A program made the translations under genes and the position numbers. Of a stretch of DNA of 64,000 bases, positions 1 through 29,386 are shown in pieces; position 1 is the first letter of the stretch, and every line of letters begins with the position of its first letter. Below the pieces are notes generated by a model. That model made no database searches. It saw only the letters and a program-made list of their open reading frames with translations, and was not told where the DNA came from. The DNA comes from Diplonema papillatum (taxonomy: Eukaryota > Euglenozoa > Diplonemea > Diplonemida > Diplonemidae). The stretch covers positions 124,001 to 188,000 of the forward strand of contig JAPJBO010000061.1 in assembly GCA_030068145.1 (NCBI GenBank), written 5' to 3'.

Positions 1-794
1 AGAGCACGATTTCTGCCTTGGAAAAAGTGCAACGATTCCTCGGAATCAACGAGCCGCTCCGAAACCCCCTCGTGAAGGATGTCCTCCAAGGGGTGAGGAG
101 GAAACAGAAAGGAAAAAGGAAGATGGATGCCATCACGTCGAAGCTTCTCGACAAGATCGTAGACGATACCTCCCCTATCACGGGCCCCAGCAGCTCCCTA
201 CGGGAGTTTCGACACCTGGCTGTCTTGTCGTACGTGTTTCTGCTGCGCATGCAAGACGAGGCGATTCCGCTTCGCAGAGGGCTCGAAAGCGACTCACCGG
301 CGAAGGCGCTACAAGACGTCAGGGCTTCGAATCGACACAGCGCAGTCTTCAAATATAAACAAGAATTGCATATCGTGTTTAAAAAGCGAAAGAACATCCG
401 TCAAGGGGAAATGTTGATACGGGGCTGCATGTGCAGAACTAGAGAAGTTGTCGTTGGATGGCGGGCAATTTGCCCAGTACATCAAATATGGCCGTACATC
501 CGGGACAATGTTGCTCACGGTGCAGCAATATTCGGCATGAAGTACCCCGACATGCTGGAAGCGGTAAAAAGAAAAGCCGCGATATTTCAGCAGCCTGTGA
601 TCGGATGGGGAACACACAGTTTCCGCAGGGGTGCTGCTCAGGATGTGAACGAGGATAACCCCGAGTTGGCTGTCCTTCTGAAGGCAGGAAGTTGGAACTC
701 GAAAACCTTCGGGGAGTACCTAGACTGGTGTAAGATCCAGAAAAAAGGCATGGAAATGGTAGCCCAGCGCGATCAAGATACGGAGAGCGAGTGA
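1..794 (+). CDS. Tyrosine recombinase, partial at the window's left edge
   Basis: The frame is open from base 3 with no start codon before the edge, so the 5' end is outside the window; the stop is at 792-794. The last 258 residues carry the tyrosine-recombinase signature: a box-I Arg in LLRMQDEAIPL, HSFRRG (the HxxR box) and a Trp/Tyr box, GSWNSKTFGEYLDW, with the candidate nucleophile Tyr. Such enzymes move YR retrotransposons or Cryptons by site-specific recombination. It is not close to the YR of the 2730-8388 element, so it belongs to a different element whose other genes lie to the left. The DNA downstream of the stop (795-1200) shows no recognisable gene. The call as recombinase is firm; the element type is unknown. 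Confidence 0.8.
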   Translation, partial: STISALEKVQRFLGINEPLRNPLVKDVLQGVRRKQKGKRKMDAITSKLLDKIVDDTSPITGPSSSLREFRHLAVLSYVFLLRMQDEAIPLRRGLESDSPAKALQDVRASNRHSAVFKYKQELHIVFKKRKNIRQGEMLIRGCMCRTREVVVGWRAICPVHQIWPYIRDNVAHGAAIFGMKYPDMLEAVKRKAAIFQQPVIGWGTHSFRRGAAQDVNEDNPELAVLLKAGSWNSKTFGEYLDWCKIQKKGMEMVAQRDQDTESE

Positions 795-2729: not shown

Positions 2730-2993
2730 ATTTTATTTCCCTTCTCTGGGGAAGAGCTGCCGCGCCAAACCTCGCTTCTTTGTACCACATGCGGAGAAAA
2801 GAGAAAGAGAGACATAAATAGAGACAGAGAGGGTTTGGAGGAGGACGCTGGCGTGCGTCGGGGCCAGTGAGAAGCACCGGCCACCTTGCTAGATACATCC
2901 TGCCGCGGAAAAGGAGCCCTTTCATTCGCTGGGGTCAGCACCCCTGCGGAGGCCCTCTTCCGTGTGCCTTCACGCGGAAGGAAACAGTAGGCA
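2730..2993 (-). repeat. Split direct repeat B2 (element 3' end)
   Basis: 264 bp, matching B1 at 4136-4399 with no difference I can see. It forms the outer 3' end of the YR retrotransposon. Its inner edge borders the satellite region. Confidence 0.9.
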
Positions 2994-3909
2994 GGATTGT
3001 ATCGGTCTGTGTTGAGCAAGGATTTCTTCTTCCTTGTCGCACAAGGGGAAAGGAGGAGGAAAACAGAAGATCCAGGGCAGTGCGGAGGGGATGCAGTAAT
3101 CACGCTTCCAGCCTCATGCACGCACGTGCCCGATGCCCTCTGTGGAGCGGAAGGAAGTCAGCCCTCTGCTGAGGGGAAAAGCTGCATAGCCCTCTGCGGA
3201 GGGAAAAGCAACGTCATTTCCCGCACGGGGAAGCCCGCCCTCTGCTGAGGGGAAAACGCTGCACGATGCCACCCCTGCTGGGGAGCCCTCTGCGGAGGGA
3301 GCGCGACGTCATTTCCCGCACGGGGAAGCCAGCCCTCTGCTGAGGGGAAAACGCTGCACGATGCCACCCCTGCTGGGGAGCCCTCTGCGGAGGGAGCGCG
3401 ACGTCATTTCCCGCACGGGGAAGCCAGCCCTCTGCTGAGGGGAAAACGCTGCACGATGCCACCCCTGCTGGGGAGCCCTCTGCGGAGGGAGCGCGACGTC
3501 ATTTCCCGCACGGGGAAGCCAGCCCTCTGCTGAGGGGAAAACGCTGCACGATGCCACCCCTGCTGGGGAGCCCTCTGCGGAGGGAGCGCGACGTCATTTC
3601 CCGCACGGGGAAGCCAGCCCTCTGCTGAGGGGAAAACGCTGCACGATGCCACCCCTGCTGGGGAGCCCTCTGCGGAGGGAGCGCGACGTCATTTCCCGCA
3701 CGGGGAAGCCAGCCCTCTGCTGAGGGGAAAACGCTGCACGATGCCACCCCTGCTGGGGAGCCCTCTGCGGAGGGAGTGCGACGTCATTTCCCGCACGGGG
3801 AAGCCAGCCCTCTGCCGAGGGGAAACGCTGCACGATGCCATCGGGGGACCCTCGCGGAGGGAAGAAGTTCATGGCGCGATACCCTCATCGCATTGGGAGG
3901 GAGGGAGGG
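2994..3909 (-). repeat. 95-bp hairpin satellite inside the YR element
   Basis: Regular 95-bp units begin at 3238, 3333, 3428, 3523, 3618, 3713 and 3808, with irregular partial units from 3137. Each unit contains four short GC hairpins: CCCTC-TGCT-GAGGG, CCCC-TGCT-GGGG, CCCTC-TGCG-GAGGG and TTCCC-GCACG-GGGAA. In the edge units the loops vary (TGCC, GCG) while the CCCTC/GAGGG stem is kept. The array lies between A2 and B2, so it is part of the element's 3' end. Reading frames of about 82 codons inside the array arise from the repeat and are not genes. Confidence 0.9.
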
Positions 3910-4136
3910 AACTTTTTTAAGCCCGGCGGAGGTCAACTGACCGGAGCTACCGGGGAGAGTGTGCTTACGTTGTGTGGTAACCTGATACGTTCGTGTGGTA
4001 TGCGTCGATTGTCTAATGAGCTTGAAGCCCCGCATGGGCGCTTTGTTCCGTGCTGTGGGCGCCGCCCGATGCACGCGGTGATTCGTTTGCGACAATAAAA
4101 CCTGAGGGAAAAAGACTGCGTGTTTATCCCTCTCAA
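3910..4136 (-). repeat. Split direct repeat A2
   Basis: 227 bp, matching A1 at 8162-8388. It shares one A at 4136 with the start of B1, so the B1/A2 junction reads CTCAATTTT. The same single A is shared at both outer junctions and in the empty site, which points to the recombination core. Confidence 0.9.
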
Positions 4137-4399
4137 TTTTATTTCCCTTCTCTGGGGAAGAGCTGCCGCGCCAAACCTCGCTTCTTTGTACCACATGCGG
4201 AGAAAAGAGAAAGAGAGACATAAATAGAGACAGAGAGGGTTTGGAGGAGGACGCTGGCGTGCGTCGGGGCCAGTGAGAAGCACCGGCCACCTTGCTAGAT
4301 ACATCCTGCCGCGGAAAAGGAGCCCTTTCATTCGCTGGGGTCAGCACCCCTGCGGAGGCCCTCTTCCGTGTGCCTTCACGCGGAAGGAAACAGTAGGCA
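4136..4399 (-). repeat. Split direct repeat B1
   Basis: 264 bp copy of B2, lying 41 bp beyond the RT-RNase H stop codon. With A2 it forms the internal junction from which a circular DNA copy could be made in the known YR-retroelement cycle. Confidence 0.9.
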
Positions 4400-4440
4400 T
4401 TATTTAAAGACGCCGCGCCCCCCTCCCCCCCCTCAATCTC

Positions 4441-7181
4441 TCAGTCTCTGGTGTCCAGGTCGGCGACCATGTTCTCGCCCGGAACCAGATGGGTGAGCAC
4501 GTCCGCATCGCGCAGGCGCTCCTGCATCTCAACGATGAGGCGGTTTTCCGCTGGGTGCGGGGACGCAAGCTTTCGGTGGCGGCTCTCGGCCGTGCTGTTG
4601 TCGTGGAAGACATCCAGCGTCACCCACCCAGTCGTGACGTGTCGAGCCAGCAGGACGCCAAGAATCGCCGTCACCAGCTCGCGCCGCCGAATCGGCGTCG
4701 GCGGAGCCAGCCTCGCCAGCCGATCCTTCCATCTCCAGCTCTCGCGAGCGAGGACGGTCCGTCGCGTCGGATCCAGGACGACCACCCCACCTCCCTGGTC
4801 GGATGCGTCCGTCCAGACGTGCACTCGCCGCGCTGGGCGCCTGACTCTGCGGGGGGAAGCGTCCCCCAGCCAGCGATCACCAGCTTCCAGCTCCGCGAGC
4901 AGCTCCTGCGGGAGCTCCACGAGCGTGTCCCAGTCGCGGTAGGTGAGGCACCTGCCACTCACCAGTCGGCTCGCACGCAGCAGCCCGGGATACGCCGCCG
5001 CCGGGGACCTCATGACGTACAGTGCCCAGCGCAGGCACCCGATACGCTGTGCCAGGGCCCGGAAGGACGTCACGCGTTGCGGCTTGTTCGCGCGGCAGAC
5101 TGCTGCCCATTCCCGCGGGATCGCGATCGTCTTTGTAGCTAGGTCCAGATCCAGACCGTTGAAGGTACCGACTTGCGAGGGGCCTTGCGCCTTGTCCTCC
5201 CGGATCTGGATCCTGGTGTCGGCAAGCACGGCCCTCAGGCTCCGCTCGTCCCGGACGACGTCGGACCTTGTCCAGCCCCCGTAGGCTATGTCGTCGTAGA
5301 TCGCCAGACTGCGGCTTCCGATGCCGGCCAGTCGGCGGACCCCCAGGGTCGTCAGCTGGGCGATCGCCGGCGCGCGCGCAATGCCCGGGACGGCTATCCG
5401 GAAGACGTAGTACGCGTTGGCCGCCCTAAACCCCAGGTAGTCCGCCAGCGCGTCGGACACCGGAAGCTGGTAGAAGTAGCCCAGCAGGTCTAGGGTCGCG
5501 AACCAAGCGTGGTCCAGGACGAAGCCCTCCACATCCCTGAGCGACGGGGTGATGGGGGACAGCGGTTGGGAGGTGCGGCTGTCAAAGGGCCTGCCATCGA
5601 TCAGCAGACGGGTCTCTTCCTTCCCCTTTTTCGGGATTTTGAACACCTTCAGAGTGATCCGCGGCCTCTTTTCGACTCTCCTAACGACGCCACTCTGCAG
5701 CATCACCGCCAGGTCGGCCTCAGTGATGTCCGAGCTCGGTGGAGCGTGGTGCCTCTCGTGCGAGAGGAGCATGGGCTCTCGCGTCAGCTGGCGCAGGACG
5801 CGAATCTCGTCCTCCCACAGGCCTCGCTCGACCTTCCCGTAGTCGGCCTTTGTGACCGGCATGGTGTCGATGGGCCCGCGGGACGTTCTGTACACCGGGC
5901 TCGGTGCCTTCGTGTACGTCCTCGATGCCAGTTCCGATAGCGCCTCTTCCTGAGCCCGAACCCCTTCGACGTGCGTGCTCACGTCCCCGCGCAGCAGCCA
6001 GTCTTCCAAGGTCACCGCCCTGTCGAAGTCGGCCTCGCTCTGCTCGCCCATGTCGCCCCGTAACCGGCTTTCCCCCCATGCGAGCAGGCGGTCCAGATAC
6101 CCGGCTGCCCCGGGATGGCGGCTGTTTGCCCAGTCCCGCAGGGGATGCGAGCTCTTCAGGTCCTGTGCGTACTCGGGGCAGAACGTGCTCGTCCTGGCCG
6201 CACCCTTCACCTTGAGCACGCCATCAGGTCGCCGCTCACCGGCGTGTGGAGCAGCAGCGACGCGCGAGCCGTCCTCACGCTGTCCGGGGTCAGGCAGCCC
6301 CAGAGATAACGCTTCAACGTGTCCTTGGACTGGTGACGGGCCATGAGCAGGAGGTCCTCCCAGCCCGCCCCGCTTCTGGCCAGGTGCTGGAGCGCCCCTC
6401 TCTTCCAGCTGTGCTCTGCACAAACCGGGAACAGCTTCCTCGCTTCCCGCAACAGCTTCCTCGTCGTGGCCTCGGTGAAGCGAGCCCCCCGCTGCACCCA
6501 CCTGCTTACTCGCAGCGCCACGCCCAGGGGGACCCGGTAAGTCACCTCTGACTCCCTCATACGAAGGCTCGCCTCCTTCGTGGTCCACCACGAAACTCGG
6601 AGCAGACCCGGCCCCACGATGACCACGTCTGTCGGGGCCAGGGCCCGCAGGTCCGCCATCCGCAGCGCTCCCGCCCACGCCAGGCAGGCAGCCACCGTCA
6701 CCTGCTCGTCGCCGCCCCTGACCAGCCCCTCGACGAGGGTCCGTTGCTGCTCCAGCGTGATCGGGGGGGCATGCGCCGGCACTTCCCTGCGCTCGAGCCT
6801 GGCTTTGAGGATGGCCTTCTTCATGGCCGCCAGATCCCCCGACGGCACCCCGAGCTTCGCCCCCAGCACCTCGACGTACTTGCCGACGGAGGCCGTGCGC
6901 ATCTCGCCGGTCCTCGGCCTGCCTCTCTGCCCCGGCACCCTCGCGACGTACGCTTCCAACTGCTCCTGTGTCATGCCCTTGCCGAGCATGGCGGTCGCGA
7001 ACGCCTTGATTCTCAGCGCGGGGGGAGCCGCCTGCAACCCCGCCACGGCTGTGAACCGCGTCAGCGACGCCACGATCGACGCCCGCTGCGCCGTCGTCTT
7101 CTTCGAGGTCGCGCCGCCCTCGAAAACCGCGACCCGCCTCTCCCACGCGGCAAACCCCCCTCTCTGGGAGGGGAGTCACCC
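4441..7181 (-). CDS. Reverse transcriptase-RNase H of the YR element (-1 frame)
   Basis: The frame is open from upstream of 7181 to the TGA at 4441. The conserved part begins near 6190. RT motifs are LDLLGYFYQLPVS (motif A region) and IYDDIAY (the catalytic YxDD box, near 5290-5310). RNase H follows with WTDASDQGGG, RRRELVTAIL, VFHDNSTAES and a C-terminal GENMVADLDTRD, so the catalytic acids are all present. No methylase domain follows. The first 330 or so codons overlap the recombinase gene in another frame and read as low-complexity Gly/Arg/Ala, so they may not be a folded domain. There is no plausible ATG near the RT domain start. A -1 shift at the A AAA AAC heptamer at the gag end (7188-7182) enters exactly this frame; reinitiation after the YR stop at 6207 is the alternative. 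Confidence 0.85.
6207..7175 (-). CDS. Tyrosine recombinase of the YR element
   Basis: This frame is the gag frame continued: it opens directly after the gag TGA (7178-7176) and runs to 6207. No ATG occurs before 6989, although recombinase-like sequence starts earlier, so UGA readthrough giving a Gag-YR fusion is possible. Signature segments are GALRMADLRAL (box-I Arg), EHSWKRGAL and ARHQSKDTLKRYLWG with the Tyr nucleophile. The second box has Lys where the family has Arg (HxxK instead of HxxR), with an Arg one residue later. The role is integration of the circular DNA copy by strand exchange. Gene order gag-YR-RT has the recombinase before the RT. Confidence 0.85.
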   Translation of the reverse strand, partial: LPSQRGGFAAWERRVAVFEGGATSKKTTAQRASIVASLTRFTAVAGLQAAPPALRIKAFATAMLGKGMTQEQLEAYVARVPGQRGRPRTGEMRTASVGKYVEVLGAKLGVPSGDLAAMKKAILKARLERREVPAHAPPITLEQQRTLVEGLVRGGDEQVTVAACLAWAGALRMADLRALAPTDVVIVGPGLLRVSWWTTKEASLRMRESEVTYRVPLGVALRVSRWVQRGARFTEATTRKLLREARKLFPVCAEHSWKRGALQHLARSGAGWEDLLLMARHQSKDTLKRYLWGCLTPDSVRTARASLLLHTPVSGDLMACSR

Positions 7182-7188
7182 GTTTTTT
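7155..7188 (-). promoter_or_regulatory. Candidate recoding signal: -1 frameshift heptamer, UGA-C stop, stem-loop
   Basis: On the minus strand, in gag frame, the codons are ACA AAA AAC GGG TGA. A AAA AAC (7188-7182) is a canonical X XXY YYZ slippery heptamer. After a 6-nt spacer a stem-loop follows (7175-7155): CTCCCCTC, loop CCAGA, GAGGGGGG, giving 8 pairs with one T-G. A -1 slip enters the RT-RNase H frame. The stop context UGA C is a known leaky context, and readthrough would enter the YR frame. One signal could therefore give Gag, Gag-YR and Gag-RT. Confidence 0.7.
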
Positions 7189-8138
7189 GTCCTGCGGGAG
7201 ACGGGCCCGTGCGAGAAACGGCAGTCCACCCTTGTGCATCTGCCTGCTTTGAAATTGCGGCAGGCCGGCGCCTGACGCGGAGGGACCCCCCGAGCGCGGG
7301 GCGGAACCGACTTGGGCGCCGCCTTAAACTGCGCCGTGAACCGGCGCCGGGCCTGCCGCACTCTCTCGGGCAGAAGTTCCACCCTCAGCACGTCGCGCAT
7401 CACTAGCGCTGCGCTGGGGTCGCGGGTCTCGTACTCCGCGTTCTGCTCCTCGTAGGAGTGGAAGAGCCCCCCCAGGCGGAGGATCCACATTCGTTTCGGG
7501 GGACCGGATTCCCCGCGGCGCAGGCGGACGAGGTCACGGACCCGTTCCGTGACATCGTCCCGCCTGTCCTGCAGCTGTTGGTTCCCTTTGAACCTGTACA
7601 GCCTTCGGACTGCGTCCTCAAACCCCCGCATGTTTGCCGCCGTCGGCTGCATTGTTCTCCACCGCTCCGGGTCGAGGAACGCGAAGTCGTCATCGTCGTC
7701 ATCGTCGCCGACGTCCTGCCCCGCGACTGCCGCGCCATCCAGCAGCGCGAGCACCTCGCGCTCGTCTTCGAGGCTGCCCAGCTCCCGCTGCAGCGTCGGG
7801 CCCAGGCCCGCCCAGAACCCTGGGTCCTGCTCGTCAAAGGCGAGAAAGATTTCTTCCGCCCTCGCCCTCGGCAGGCCGGGCATGAGCTCGGCCGGCATCA
7901 GTGGTACCCCCCCCTCTCCCGGTAGCTCCTCTCCGCCTCTTGGCCTCTTGGCCTCCTTCTCCGCCTCGTCCTGCTCACGTGCCCTCTTCTGGGCAGCGCC
8001 GATCTCCCTCTCGGCGGCTTCAACTTCGGCCTCACGCCGGGCCAGGCCTGCCTCGAGATCGAGAAGGCGCTTCTCCAGGAGAGCCAGCCCCTCCGCGTCC
8101 CTCTGCAGGGCGTTCTGCTGTTGCTGCTTGGGGGGCAT
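7176..8138 (-). CDS. Gag-like protein of the YR element
   Basis: ATG at 8138, stop TGA at 7176; 320 residues. The N-terminus (about 1-75) is a charged, heptad-like coiled coil rich in Glu, Arg and Lys. A run of seven Asp lies near the middle. The C-terminus has a CCCH zinc finger, CRNFKAGRCTRVDCRFSH, likely for binding element RNA. It sits between A1 and the recombinase, which is the expected gag position. It stops five codons after the zinc finger region's Ser-Arg-Arg, at the recoding signal. I know no closer family assignment. Confidence 0.8.
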   Translation of the reverse strand: MPPKQQQQNALQRDAEGLALLEKRLLDLEAGLARREAEVEAAEREIGAAQKRAREQDEAEKEAKRPRGGEELPGEGGVPLMPAELMPGLPRARAEEIFLAFDEQDPGFWAGLGPTLQRELGSLEDEREVLALLDGAAVAGQDVGDDDDDDDFAFLDPERWRTMQPTAANMRGFEDAVRRLYRFKGNQQLQDRRDDVTERVRDLVRLRRGESGPPKRMWILRLGGLFHSYEEQNAEYETRDPSAALVMRDVLRVELLPERVRQARRRFTAQFKAAPKSVPPRARGVPPRQAPACRNFKAGRCTRVDCRFSHGPVSRRTKNG

Positions 8139-8161
8139 CGCAACTTGGGGAAACTTGGGGT

Positions 8162-8388
8162 AACTTTTTTAAGCCCGGCGGAGGTCAACTGACCGGAGCT
8201 ACCGGGGAGAGTGTGCTTACGTTGTGTGGTAACCTGATACGTTCGTGTGGTATGCGTCGATTGTCTAATGAGCTTGAAGCCCCGCATGGGCGCTTTGTTC
8301 CGTGCTGTGGGCGCCGCCCGATGCACGCGGTGATTCGTTTGCGACAATAAAACCTGAGGGAAAAAGACTGCGTGTTTATCCCTCTCAA
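8162..8388 (-). repeat. Split direct repeat A1 (element 5' end)
   Basis: 227 bp, matching A2. It lies 23 bp upstream of the gag ATG, so it probably carries the promoter and leader of the element transcript. Its outer edge joins host repeat sequence at 8389. Confidence 0.9.
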
Positions 8389-12229: not shown

Positions 12230-13669
12230 AGGAGCGAACTGTGCGCCACCGGGGCCCCTCGACAAGTGCCACCCTTGATCATACCAGCCGTGAGGGCCCA
12301 CGGCTTCCTACCGCCCGAGGGACGAATACAGCTGCTGTCGTGCAACGCCTCTGCAAAGATGCGTCTGGAGAGATACTTCGCCCGCCTGCCTGCTGCCGAT
12401 CTGTTGGCGGTGAACGAAATCGGCCGAGAACCCACCGTTTTTCGGGTGAATACGCTGCACGGGCTGGGTGGACGGTGGTTGTGATAGGGGTCTGCCCCTA
12501 TTCCGGCGACCGCCCCATAGCACGAACGGACATTCTTGTGAAAAGACAACACAGTGACGATATCGCAATGTTTTTCGGGGTATGGTGCGTGCAGTGTCAA
12601 GCTTCGAAATAGCAGGAGAGACGTAGAGGGTGGTGAGTGTGTACGGACCGTGCCACAAGCGCGACGTGCTCGTAGAGCGACTCGGGGAATGGATGGCGCA
12701 CCGTGCAAGAGAATGCTCGACCGACCTGGCAGTAGTCGGCGATTTCAACCCGAGGACGACCCCACAGATAGAGAGGCGGATGCGACAAGAGCAAGTGCAA
12801 GAACTGGTGCGGTCACGAACGACTTTCTCGAGATCGAATGCAAACTCTTCGCTGGACAGAGCTTTTGTCCCACGCAGATCAAGGTGGAGCCTGGACTTCG
12901 TCCGTTTCACCGGCGGAAGTGACCACGAGGTACTGGCCCTTAGTTTTGATAAGCACATGAGGAGGCCCAGCAATGTTGTACCCAGCGGCGCGCCAAAGCC
13001 TGCACCAGGCGACCTTTCCTGGGCTTCTTGGCGCCTTAGACGACAATGCGGCAGCACCCCCACCCCGGCCCCGCAGCACGAAGACCGCCCGCCTGCAGAA
13101 AGCTCTCCAAAAATTTTGGTAGCCCGGGGCGGGGCCGATGTAGCCTGGTCTGGTACTGTGACAGCCAGGCGGCCATACAACGAGTGCAGCGGAGACATCT
13201 TGGCGACCCCGTGTCAGAGTGCCTTGACGAGTACGCGGAGCGGTGGAGCAAGGGGCACGCGGAAAACCAGCATATCAACCGCGCGGATGAGGCGGCGTCG
13301 AAGGCCCTACGCGAGGGAACGCCGGCGCTGGATGTGGAACACCTCCACTGGAGAAACGGGGAGAAGGCAGTCTGCGTTTACGCAGTCGGGAACTTCCCGC
13401 AGCTGGAGGGACAAGCCGAGTACGTGCGGCGTGTCAGGCGGTACGAACGGACGAAGACCGCGACGAGAGCGATACGGGACATGGCGACGGGAAAGACGAC
13501 GAGAGGGAGCACTCTCAGGGCGCTAGAGACGGTCCCAGGGGCGGTGGACCTCCTGCTCGCGATCGTGAGAAGGTCGATACTGCCGAAAAGAACCCGCGTG
13601 CAATGTAGACGGTGCTGCGAGATGGCAAATAGCCGATATGAGGAATGTGGACGATATCGAGAGTTTTAG
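12230..13669 (+). pseudogene. LINE copy 1, endonuclease and RNase H remnants, RT deleted
   Basis: Frames in sequence match the intact LINE at 14428-17871: LLSCNASAKMRLERYFARLP (12320-12380), VVGDFNPRTTPQ (near 12730), SSLDRAFVPRRSR and FTGGSDHEVL (near 12850-12930), which are APE-endonuclease motifs. Near 13020-13130 the sequence jumps to RNase H (WYCDSQAAIQRV, then WSKGHAENQHINRADEA), so most of the RT is missing. Frameshifts separate the pieces. It ends near 13660, where a GTC-core repeat begins. Confidence 0.8.
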
Positions 13670-23190: not shown

Positions 23191-23361
23191 GAGGGGATTG
23201 CCTTTTTTCTATTCTCAACTGAAGAAAAAAACACACATTGCAGAAGCCGCGTTTCTGGACGGCTTCGTCGATTTCATGTCGTAAGCAGTCGGTGCGTTGG
23301 ATCCTCTCATATGTACACGAGAGATGGCGAAGGAAAATACTCGAGGGGCTGCCTTGTGCTT

Positions 23362-23551
23362 ACTTCGAAGGAGGCTAGAGGGGGAGAAACAATACAACTA
23401 CAAAATGGGTCTTTTTCGTTGAACGCTTACGCCCGCCACTAAACCCAGATTCACCTGTGTTTCGTGTGGGCTACAGCGCATTTACCTCCTTTGATCTTTT
23501 GCAGCTGGCAGCCTCCTCAAGTATTTCCTACAAAGCAGGTGCTTATACAAA
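23362..23551 (+). repeat. A-tailed dispersed repeat: the empty YR target site
   Basis: This copy contains GTGCTTACTTCGAAGGAGGC...GGGGG, one A, then GAAACAATACAACTACAAAA without interruption. The left half equals 2701-2729 and the right half equals 8389 onward, so it shows the state before YR insertion. A diverged copy is at 40760-40810. Confidence 0.85.
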
Positions 23552-28715: not shown

Positions 28716-29386
28716 CTGGATTCCTGGCAGGGGGGGTTCATTTTTGGGGAGTATTCAGGGTTTGTTCTAGGATTCTCGACTTCAGTTTTGAGGCTCTATT
28801 ATTTGAGACTCTATTCACTGAGCCGGAAATATTTTTTCCATGCTGTGTTGGTCAAACTCACTTTCATACATTCCTGCAGTTTAAGGCGAAGTCCAGCTCT
28901 TCCTCTTTCAAGGGAACTACATGACAGTGTCAGGGGGAGTTCCTGCACAGAGCAGACAAATGGGATGGACCTTTCTTCGCAGGGGCTCACGCACTCAAAG
29001 TTCGACTTATACGCACAGAGCAGACACATGATCATTGCAGCAGTGGGACACAGGCTTTCTGAGAGCTACAATCTGGAAAGTTGTCGGATCCACTAGTTGC
29101 CTCTCAAATATTTTCTTGGGGGGTCCACTGGACCCGTTGGACCCCCTAGAATAAACCCTGTAAGTATTGACGGGACCCATGGGAGCCCTGAACTGTTTAG
29201 CGTTTATTGTGGTTTAGAGGTTCGCTGTTTTGGGGTCTCCGGTTGACCATTGAGGCGTTTTGCTCCGCCATCGATCCGGCGCCGCAAGTTCTCGGAGCCC
29301 ATGTCCGGAGTCCTTGAAGCCATGTACTCACCACCAGGACTATCATCAGCTAGAAACCTGAGTCTCTGCGGAGCAGGATGTAAACA
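28716..29386. other. Non-coding stretch with a partial GTC-core repeat
   Basis: Bases 29200-29260 carry the family start GCGTTTATTGTGGTTTAGAG and core GGGGTCTCCGGTTGACC, then diverge. Nothing else is recognised. Confidence 0.5.

Follow-up and report, generated by a model that had tools for sequence, protein, structure and literature searches.

A candidate retrovirus-type frameshift signal at the gag end of a VIPER-like tyrosine recombinase retrotransposon from the protist Diplonema papillatum

Architecture and identity of the element

We examined a 64,000-nucleotide stretch of nuclear DNA from the marine protist Diplonema papillatum (contig JAPJBO010000061.1, positions 124,001 to 188,000; here called the window), whose minus strand carries a tyrosine recombinase (YR) retrotransposon (Table 1). 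Its open reading frames (ORFs) follow in the order gag, YR, and reverse transcriptase (RT) with a putative RNase H (RH), with the YR and RT ORFs overlapping, and its split direct repeats lie in A1...B1-A2...B2 order (A, 230 bp; B, 269 bp). A1 and A2, as well as B1 and B2, are 99 to 100% identical and the three ORFs are intact, so this copy looks young. A second copy was not found within the 64-kb window. At the end of gag, 34 nucleotides (nt) hold a slippery heptamer, the gag stop codon, and a hairpin. A retrovirus-type -1 frameshift at this site, yielding a Gag-RT/RH fusion, is the best explanation for how the RT is made, and we consider it moderately likely.

Table 1. Parts of the D. papillatum element, in positions of the window
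Feature	Positions	Strand	Details
YR retrotransposon, whole element	8388 to 2730	-	
A1	8159..8388	-	left split direct repeat, 230 bp
gag ORF	7176..8138	-	320 amino acids (aa), ATG to TGA; CCCH-like finger C-terminal
Slippery heptamer	7182..7188	-	A AAA AAC, gag phase
Spacer	7176..7181	-	GGG UGA, 6 nt, includes gag stop (UGA-C)
Stem-loop	7155..7175 (predicted fold of 10 bp, 7153-7177)	-	stem 8 bp, loop 5 nt
YR ORF	6207..7175	-	gag frame, 322 codons; first ATG 6989
RT-RNase H ORF	4441..7323	-	-1 frame; RT-frame ATGs 7239 and 6051
B1	4136..4404	-	split direct repeat
A2	3907..4136	-	split direct repeat, adjoins B1
Tandem array	3188..3840	-	95-bp unit, 6.9 copies, with CCCTCNGCAGAGGG palindromes, between A2 and B2
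B2	2730..2998	-	split direct repeat

An earlier note on this DNA, made from the sequence alone, had called the element a YR retrotransposon, and this identity holds: the YR model matches Cre and Xer recombinases, and the element has both the split direct repeats and the gene order gag-YR-RT. The predicted YR structure (mean predicted local distance difference test score [pLDDT], 76.5) had Cre recombinases as its best PDB matches (E = 2e-7), with XerA and the Tn1549 integrase ranked lower. The template modeling score against Cre of ~0.44, at a root mean square deviation of ~10, marks this as a likeness at the fold level only. PF00589 was found in all six members of the YR family (best E = 4e-5) and in the window copy only at E = 0.23, and a PDB sequence profile search with the YR reached Cre only at E = 0.16. 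PF00078 (RVT_1) was found in 5/5 RT family members (best E = 1.3e-5); the window RT matched it at E = 0.012 with 15.8 bits, short of the curated cutoff of 29.6. The RT profile had no match among PDB sequences, and the RT/RNase H fold model (mean pLDDT, 33) was not used. The RNase H motif was assigned by eye only, with a Peptidase_A17 match in one of the five RT members (E = 0.052); the Peptidase_A17 model is described as an RNase H in the available part of PMC6681497. The Gag finger is of the CCCH type, with Pfam matches below cutoff, and the RT ORF had no match to a methyltransferase family at E values up to 1. Together, the architecture supports placement as a VIPER-like YR retrotransposon.

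Protein searches, each scoring only ~8,000 candidates that shared most words, returned D. papillatum proteins as all the Gag matches listed (4/4), all the RT matches listed (4/4), and 4/6 of the YR matches listed. The other two YR matches were P0009, near-identical to the window YR, and P0014, an ENA protein. The cluster of P0009 holds six member sequences and one contig, which is no proof of six copies. By BLAST, the RT relative P0005 covers 91% of the window RT at 100% identity; one I/L difference shows in the alignment. The RT cluster of P0005 comprises 14 member sequences and one contig. Viral contigs (RT and YR queries) and bacterial and archaeal contigs (RT query) gave no confirmed relative, in databases from which records of the organism's own genome are possibly excluded.

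YR residues 255 to 260 (6396 to 6413, minus strand) read HSWKRG, with Lys at the Arg position of HxxR. The HxxR motif of tyrosine recombinases carries Arg. All four named D. papillatum YR relatives in the alignment share HSWKRG, and P0014 has HSWRRG.

Candidate recoding signals at the gag end

On the minus strand, gag ends in AGG (7193) ACA AAA AAC GGG TGA (7178), followed by CTC CCC. The heptamer A AAA AAC (7188 to 7182) stands in the X XXY YYZ phase of gag, 3 nt ahead of the stop, and the spacer GGGUGA (7181 to 7176) puts 6 nt between heptamer and stem. The earlier note had described this in-phase heptamer and the 6-nt spacer with its gag UGA-C, and both were confirmed. Its account of the frames also proved correct: the YR ORF (7175 to 6207) lies in the gag frame directly behind the UGA, where readthrough would enter it, and the RT ORF occupies the -1 frame, where a -1 slip would enter it, with no stop between 7323 and the TGA at 4443 to 4441. 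Three attributes of a -1 frameshift site (a zero-phase heptamer, a structure 5 to 9 nt downstream, and a -1 ORF with a functional domain) appear in the sequence here.

Canonical heptamers in phase occur once in gag and in neither the YR nor the RT ORF. The probability of finding one in the last eight gag codons was 0.001 with random element codons and 0.024 with the protein tail held fixed. AAA is an unusual choice here, since 33 of the 40 Lys codons of the element are AAG. The two strands of the window together carry 729 canonical heptamers, and 2 of these had a downstream stem at least as strong, namely the gag-end site itself and one at 29158; in shuffled windows (n = 20, with fewer heptamers), this was true of 5/5,549. 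The -1 frame has no stop over the 325 codons of overlap, which 3.6% of 20,000 synonymous shuffles equaled, and the +1 frame has 13 stops over the overlap (12.7 expected).

Two other routes were considered and rejected. UGA has not been reassigned as a sense codon, because TGA closes all three ORFs. A YR-to-RT frameshift at the end of the YR ORF would have no canonical heptamer to act on; besides the gag-end heptamer, the coding span contains a single one, at 5433, which is out of the RT phase.

The stem pairs 7175 to 7168 with 7162 to 7155 around a loop at 7167 to 7163. The 8-bp stem and 5-nt loop given in the earlier note therefore stand, and its description as a GC stem was slightly generous, as 6 of the 8 pairs are G-C, with one A-U and one G-U. 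The minimum-energy fold extends to 10 pairs (7177 to 7168 with 7162 to 7153; -16.8 kcal/mol), and the 81 nt around the site folded better than 200/200 shuffles (z = -2.80). When folding started at 7181 (lengths of 40, 50, 60, and 80 nt), the short hairpin formed in 3/4 cases, twice lengthened into the spacer, and a long-range helix formed in the fourth. In these predictions, a strong structure at the site is robust, while its exact pairing partner is not. By eye, no pseudoknot that would improve on the simple stem was seen at the gag end. The stem starts 6 nt past the heptamer and 0 to 1 nt past the UGA, a position that suits stalling at the heptamer and not readthrough.

The CCCTCNGCAGAGGG palindromes of the 95-bp array (3188 to 3840) resemble the gag-end hairpin and are possibly a Gag-binding or packaging motif. 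The minus strand of the window has 15 palindromes of the form CCCTC-N-GCAGAGGG, every one of them within 3175 to 3821.

The gag tail could be compared in two of the four Gag relatives, P0003 (66% identical) and P0004 (57% identical); P0001 and P0002, whose models are shorter and part from the window Gag ahead of the finger, were not counted. The window Gag ends in ...RRTKNG and the relatives in ...RRVPSKND and ...RRSAKNG, so that K-N-(G/D)-stop is kept in 2/2 relatives with a visible tail and the stretch from RR to KN varies in length. The residue before the tail Lys is T, S, or A, all of which have NCN codons (S also AGY). Such K-N-x-stop tails would be expected from a kept CA-AAA-AAC-G lying 3 nt before the stop.

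We also scored codon usage with a measure for which other stretches of the element served as the training set (5% point of in-frame windows, 0.23; 95% point of out-of-frame windows, -0.21). The earlier note had observed that the YR lacks an ATG for its first 60 or so codons, and indeed the first ATG, at 6989, is codon 63. Codons 1 to 62 ahead of it (7175 to 6990) scored 0.37, within the coding range. In the RT frame, the stretch from the YR stop to the ATG at 6051 (6204 to 6052) scored 0.13 bits/codon, intermediate between these limits, versus -0.48 and -0.62 in the other frames. Given these upstream scores, the YR is very likely, and the RT probably, read from above these downstream ATGs. With a coding signal ahead of its first ATG, the YR would need a special route, that is, entry from upstream or a non-AUG start.

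The RT-frame signal is steady from about 6200 onward, the RT ORF above this point overlapping the YR, and is raised at 7253 to 7050. Synonymous resampling in the RT frame gave P = 0.010 for 7175 to 7050, P = 0.005 for 7238 to 7050, and P = 0.011 for 7295 to 7050, values uncorrected and drawn from 15 overlapping or control stretches. Scores around the heptamer were 0.20 to 0.32, versus a maximum of -0.06 in 438 further -1-frame windows of the element.

Proposed routes to the recombinase and the reverse transcriptase

We propose that the element would be expressed from one long mRNA. Ribosomes reaching the gag end would meet A AAA AAC, a 6-nt spacer with the UGA, and a strong stem; most would terminate at the UGA and release Gag. 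A fraction would slip by -1, cross the YR out of frame for ~325 codons, and produce a fusion of Gag with RT/RNase H, in the manner of retroviral gag-pol. The analysis shows the sequence elements, their phases, the open frames, and the K-N-x-stop tail of two relatives; the slip and its frequency, a single mRNA, and the fusion product are what we infer. The YR, in the gag frame and with no AUG, would most simply be reached by occasional readthrough of the UGA, a much less certain step.

The earlier note had proposed that the site serves both outcomes, one RNA giving Gag, Gag-YR, and Gag-RT. In this reading, the slip would give Gag-RT/RH, readthrough would give Gag-recombinase, and one RNA and one stop would set the proportions of the three products. 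The frameshift half of this proposal has good support in the anatomy of the site and in the K-N-(G/D)-stop tail of two relatives. The readthrough half is weaker, and we regard the double use as doubtful. In its favor, coding sequence in frame follows the stop directly, with the YR-frame score of 0.37 given above. Against it, the UGA is followed by CUC, the hairpin abuts the stop, and the YR of the relative P0010 is annotated as starting with a Met at the homologous N terminus. Strong readthrough contexts are of the CUAG type, and here the UGA-C continues with UC; known readthrough stimulators also sit further downstream of the stop. Readthrough is still the leading candidate for the YR, a possible route with a weaker case than the frameshift.

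Several observations weigh against the frameshift. The hairpin alone is unexceptional for its composition, since 25/200 shuffles did as well over 30 nt (z = -1.05) and 19/200 did as well with the hairpin in 39 nt (z = -1.45); in a 56-nt piece, its 5' arm pairs instead with GGGAGAGGCGGG further on (-27.8 kcal/mol). The AAA-AAC of the relatives is deduced from amino acids, in two proteins. Upstream of the heptamer, at 7239, the RT frame contains an ATG from which the RT could have its own start, and the RT-frame signal is raised upstream of the heptamer too (7238 to 7179; z = 1.3, P = 0.076), which fits such a start. Because of this, the raised signal cannot alone separate a frameshift from an independent start. 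The RT-frame score of 0.13 at 6204 to 6052 is below the in-frame 5% point. The gag frame itself scored -0.47 over 7295 to 7176 despite its conserved zinc finger, so the score is not fully reliable at the gag tail. An out-of-frame linker of 325 codons is long, and most of it (6839 to 6210) is without an RT-frame coding signature. Finally, D. papillatum uses spliced-leader trans-splicing to resolve its genes (PMC10161547, available part), which makes recoding one route among others.

A rival explanation is separate trans-spliced or alternatively spliced mRNAs, in which the RT would start at ATG 7239 or 6051, the YR would come from a splice at the pyrimidine tract CTCCCCTCCCAG followed by AGA (7164), and the "stem" would in part be a splice acceptor. 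In its favor, the annotations of the RT relatives P0005, P0006, and P0007 start from the Met at 6051. Trans-splicing is common to all Euglenozoa, and D. papillatum genes have introns (both from the available part of PMC10161547). We ranked splice sites by pyrimidine counts over the 308 AGs of the element, not by trained splice scores. The 7164 site has 11/15 pyrimidines, and only 3/308 AGs are richer; P0009 begins exactly at the AGA (7163) and is perhaps a gene model using this acceptor. A 5' splice at 7164, however, leaves the YR without an AUG before codon 63, which falls inside the predicted N-terminal helical domain. The AGs examined a short way upstream of ATG 7239 are poor to middling (9, 8, and 6/15 pyrimidines at 7247, 7244, and 7240), as are those upstream of ATG 6051 (9 and 5/15 at 6105 and 6068), and the RT coding signal starts above 6051. 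The most pyrimidine-rich tract and AG of the 308 (8353 to 8370, minus strand, inside A1) is a candidate spliced-leader acceptor at 8354 (13/15); its position ahead of gag fits a single mRNA that covers the three ORFs. Separate mRNAs would also leave the heptamer and the kept K-N-x-stop unexplained, and on balance we find this explanation unlikely.

A different account concerns the YR only and is compatible with a frameshift into the RT: relatives have a Met where this copy has Phe (7154), the UGA is an ordinary stop, and the YR is either dead here or reached in the family by coupled reinitiation. An AUG-started YR does seem to exist in related elements, because P0010 (57% identical; 304 aa) is annotated from a Met, its MASWE aligning with FAAWE from window residue 8, and P0014 (37% identical) is annotated from residue 15. 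Yet the near-identical P0009 has no Met at the Phe 8 position, the annotations of P0011 (80% identical) and P0012 (53% identical) start only at about residue 132 and at residue 34, respectively, the element is otherwise intact and young, and two substitutions would be needed (TTT to ATG). We rate a lost YR start as rather unlikely. Chance appears more improbable still: an A-run and a hairpin could arise accidentally in a GC-rich element with purine/pyrimidine skew, and the hairpin would be kin of the CCCTCNGCAGAGGG array palindromes. The 15 CCCTC-N-GCAGAGGG palindromes of the 3' array, the hairpin z scores of only -1.05 to -1.45, and the P value of 0.036 for -1 openness would agree with this. 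Against accident stand the joint placement of these elements at the gag stop, in phase and in the right direction, and the tail kept in two relatives.

Comparison with known elements and neighboring features

Retroviral A AAA AAC sites of the human T-cell leukemia virus, mouse mammary tumor virus, and equine infectious anemia virus type share with the D. papillatum site the heptamer, a short spacer holding or near the gag stop, a downstream stem, and pol in the -1 frame. Unlike retroviral gag-pro/pol, the element has a YR in frame behind the same stop, its RT comes ~325 codons later, and its host is a protist. Murine leukemia virus, with its gag UAG readthrough, likewise has an in-frame enzyme ORF behind a leaky stop, but its structure follows a spacer of ~8 nt, whereas the element has UGA-C with the stem directly after the stop. 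In contrast to the usual order in PAT and Ngaro, the YR stands ahead of the RT in this element, and its RT ORF is without the methyltransferase match noted above. Split direct repeats are common to PAT, Ngaro, and the element (PMC6681497; for PAT, also PMC3266345; available parts).

The closest likeness is to the VIPER/TATE elements of kinetoplastids, VIPER-like retrotransposons of the order DIRS, which share the order Gag-YR-RT/RH, the YR-RT/RH overlap, the A1...B1-A2...B2 repeats, and a euglenozoan host (PMC6681497 and PMC12278014, available parts). ORFs with a likeness to TATE proteins have been noted in the D. papillatum genome (PMC10161547, available part). VIPER/TATE Gag has a CH-box, CX2CX4HX4C, which is not present in the window Gag with its CCCH-type finger; several kinetoplastid copies also lack the CH-box, so it does not define the group. 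Unlike VIPER/TATE, the element has a long 95-bp tandem array between A2 and B2 and, unlike the account given of them, a candidate recoding signal at the gag end. The available part of PMC6681497 does not use the word "readthrough" and uses "frameshift" three times, about a mutated copy.

In the parts of the open-licence PubMed Central (PMC) literature available to us, we found no account of YR-element expression by frameshift or readthrough, and how the enzymes are made despite the wide YR-RT overlap is left unexplained. Nor did we find in open-licence PMC literature an account of readthrough and frameshifting at the same gag-pol stop, and the terms "DIRS" and "tyrosine recombinase" do not occur in the available part of a 2016 recoding review (PMC5009743). 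If the frameshift is real, it would bring gag-pol recoding of the retroviral style to a discoban protist, in a retroelement that uses a recombinase; dual recoding at one stop, if true, would be an unusual means of setting three product levels. The 34-nt signal is directly testable in a genetically manipulable diplonemid (PMC12621601, available part).

Elsewhere in the window, positions 126 to 794 (plus strand) hold another tyrosine recombinase-like ORF with an HSFRRGAAQD motif, apparently the end of a different YR element; it had no Pfam match at E values up to 0.1. Positions 12627 to 13523 (plus strand) gave a weak match to PF14529 (endonuclease-reverse transcriptase; E = 0.011) and are probably a fragment of a non-long-terminal-repeat element. 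A 30-bp perfect repeat links the flank beside B2 (2701 to 2730) with a distant site in the window (23356 to 23385).

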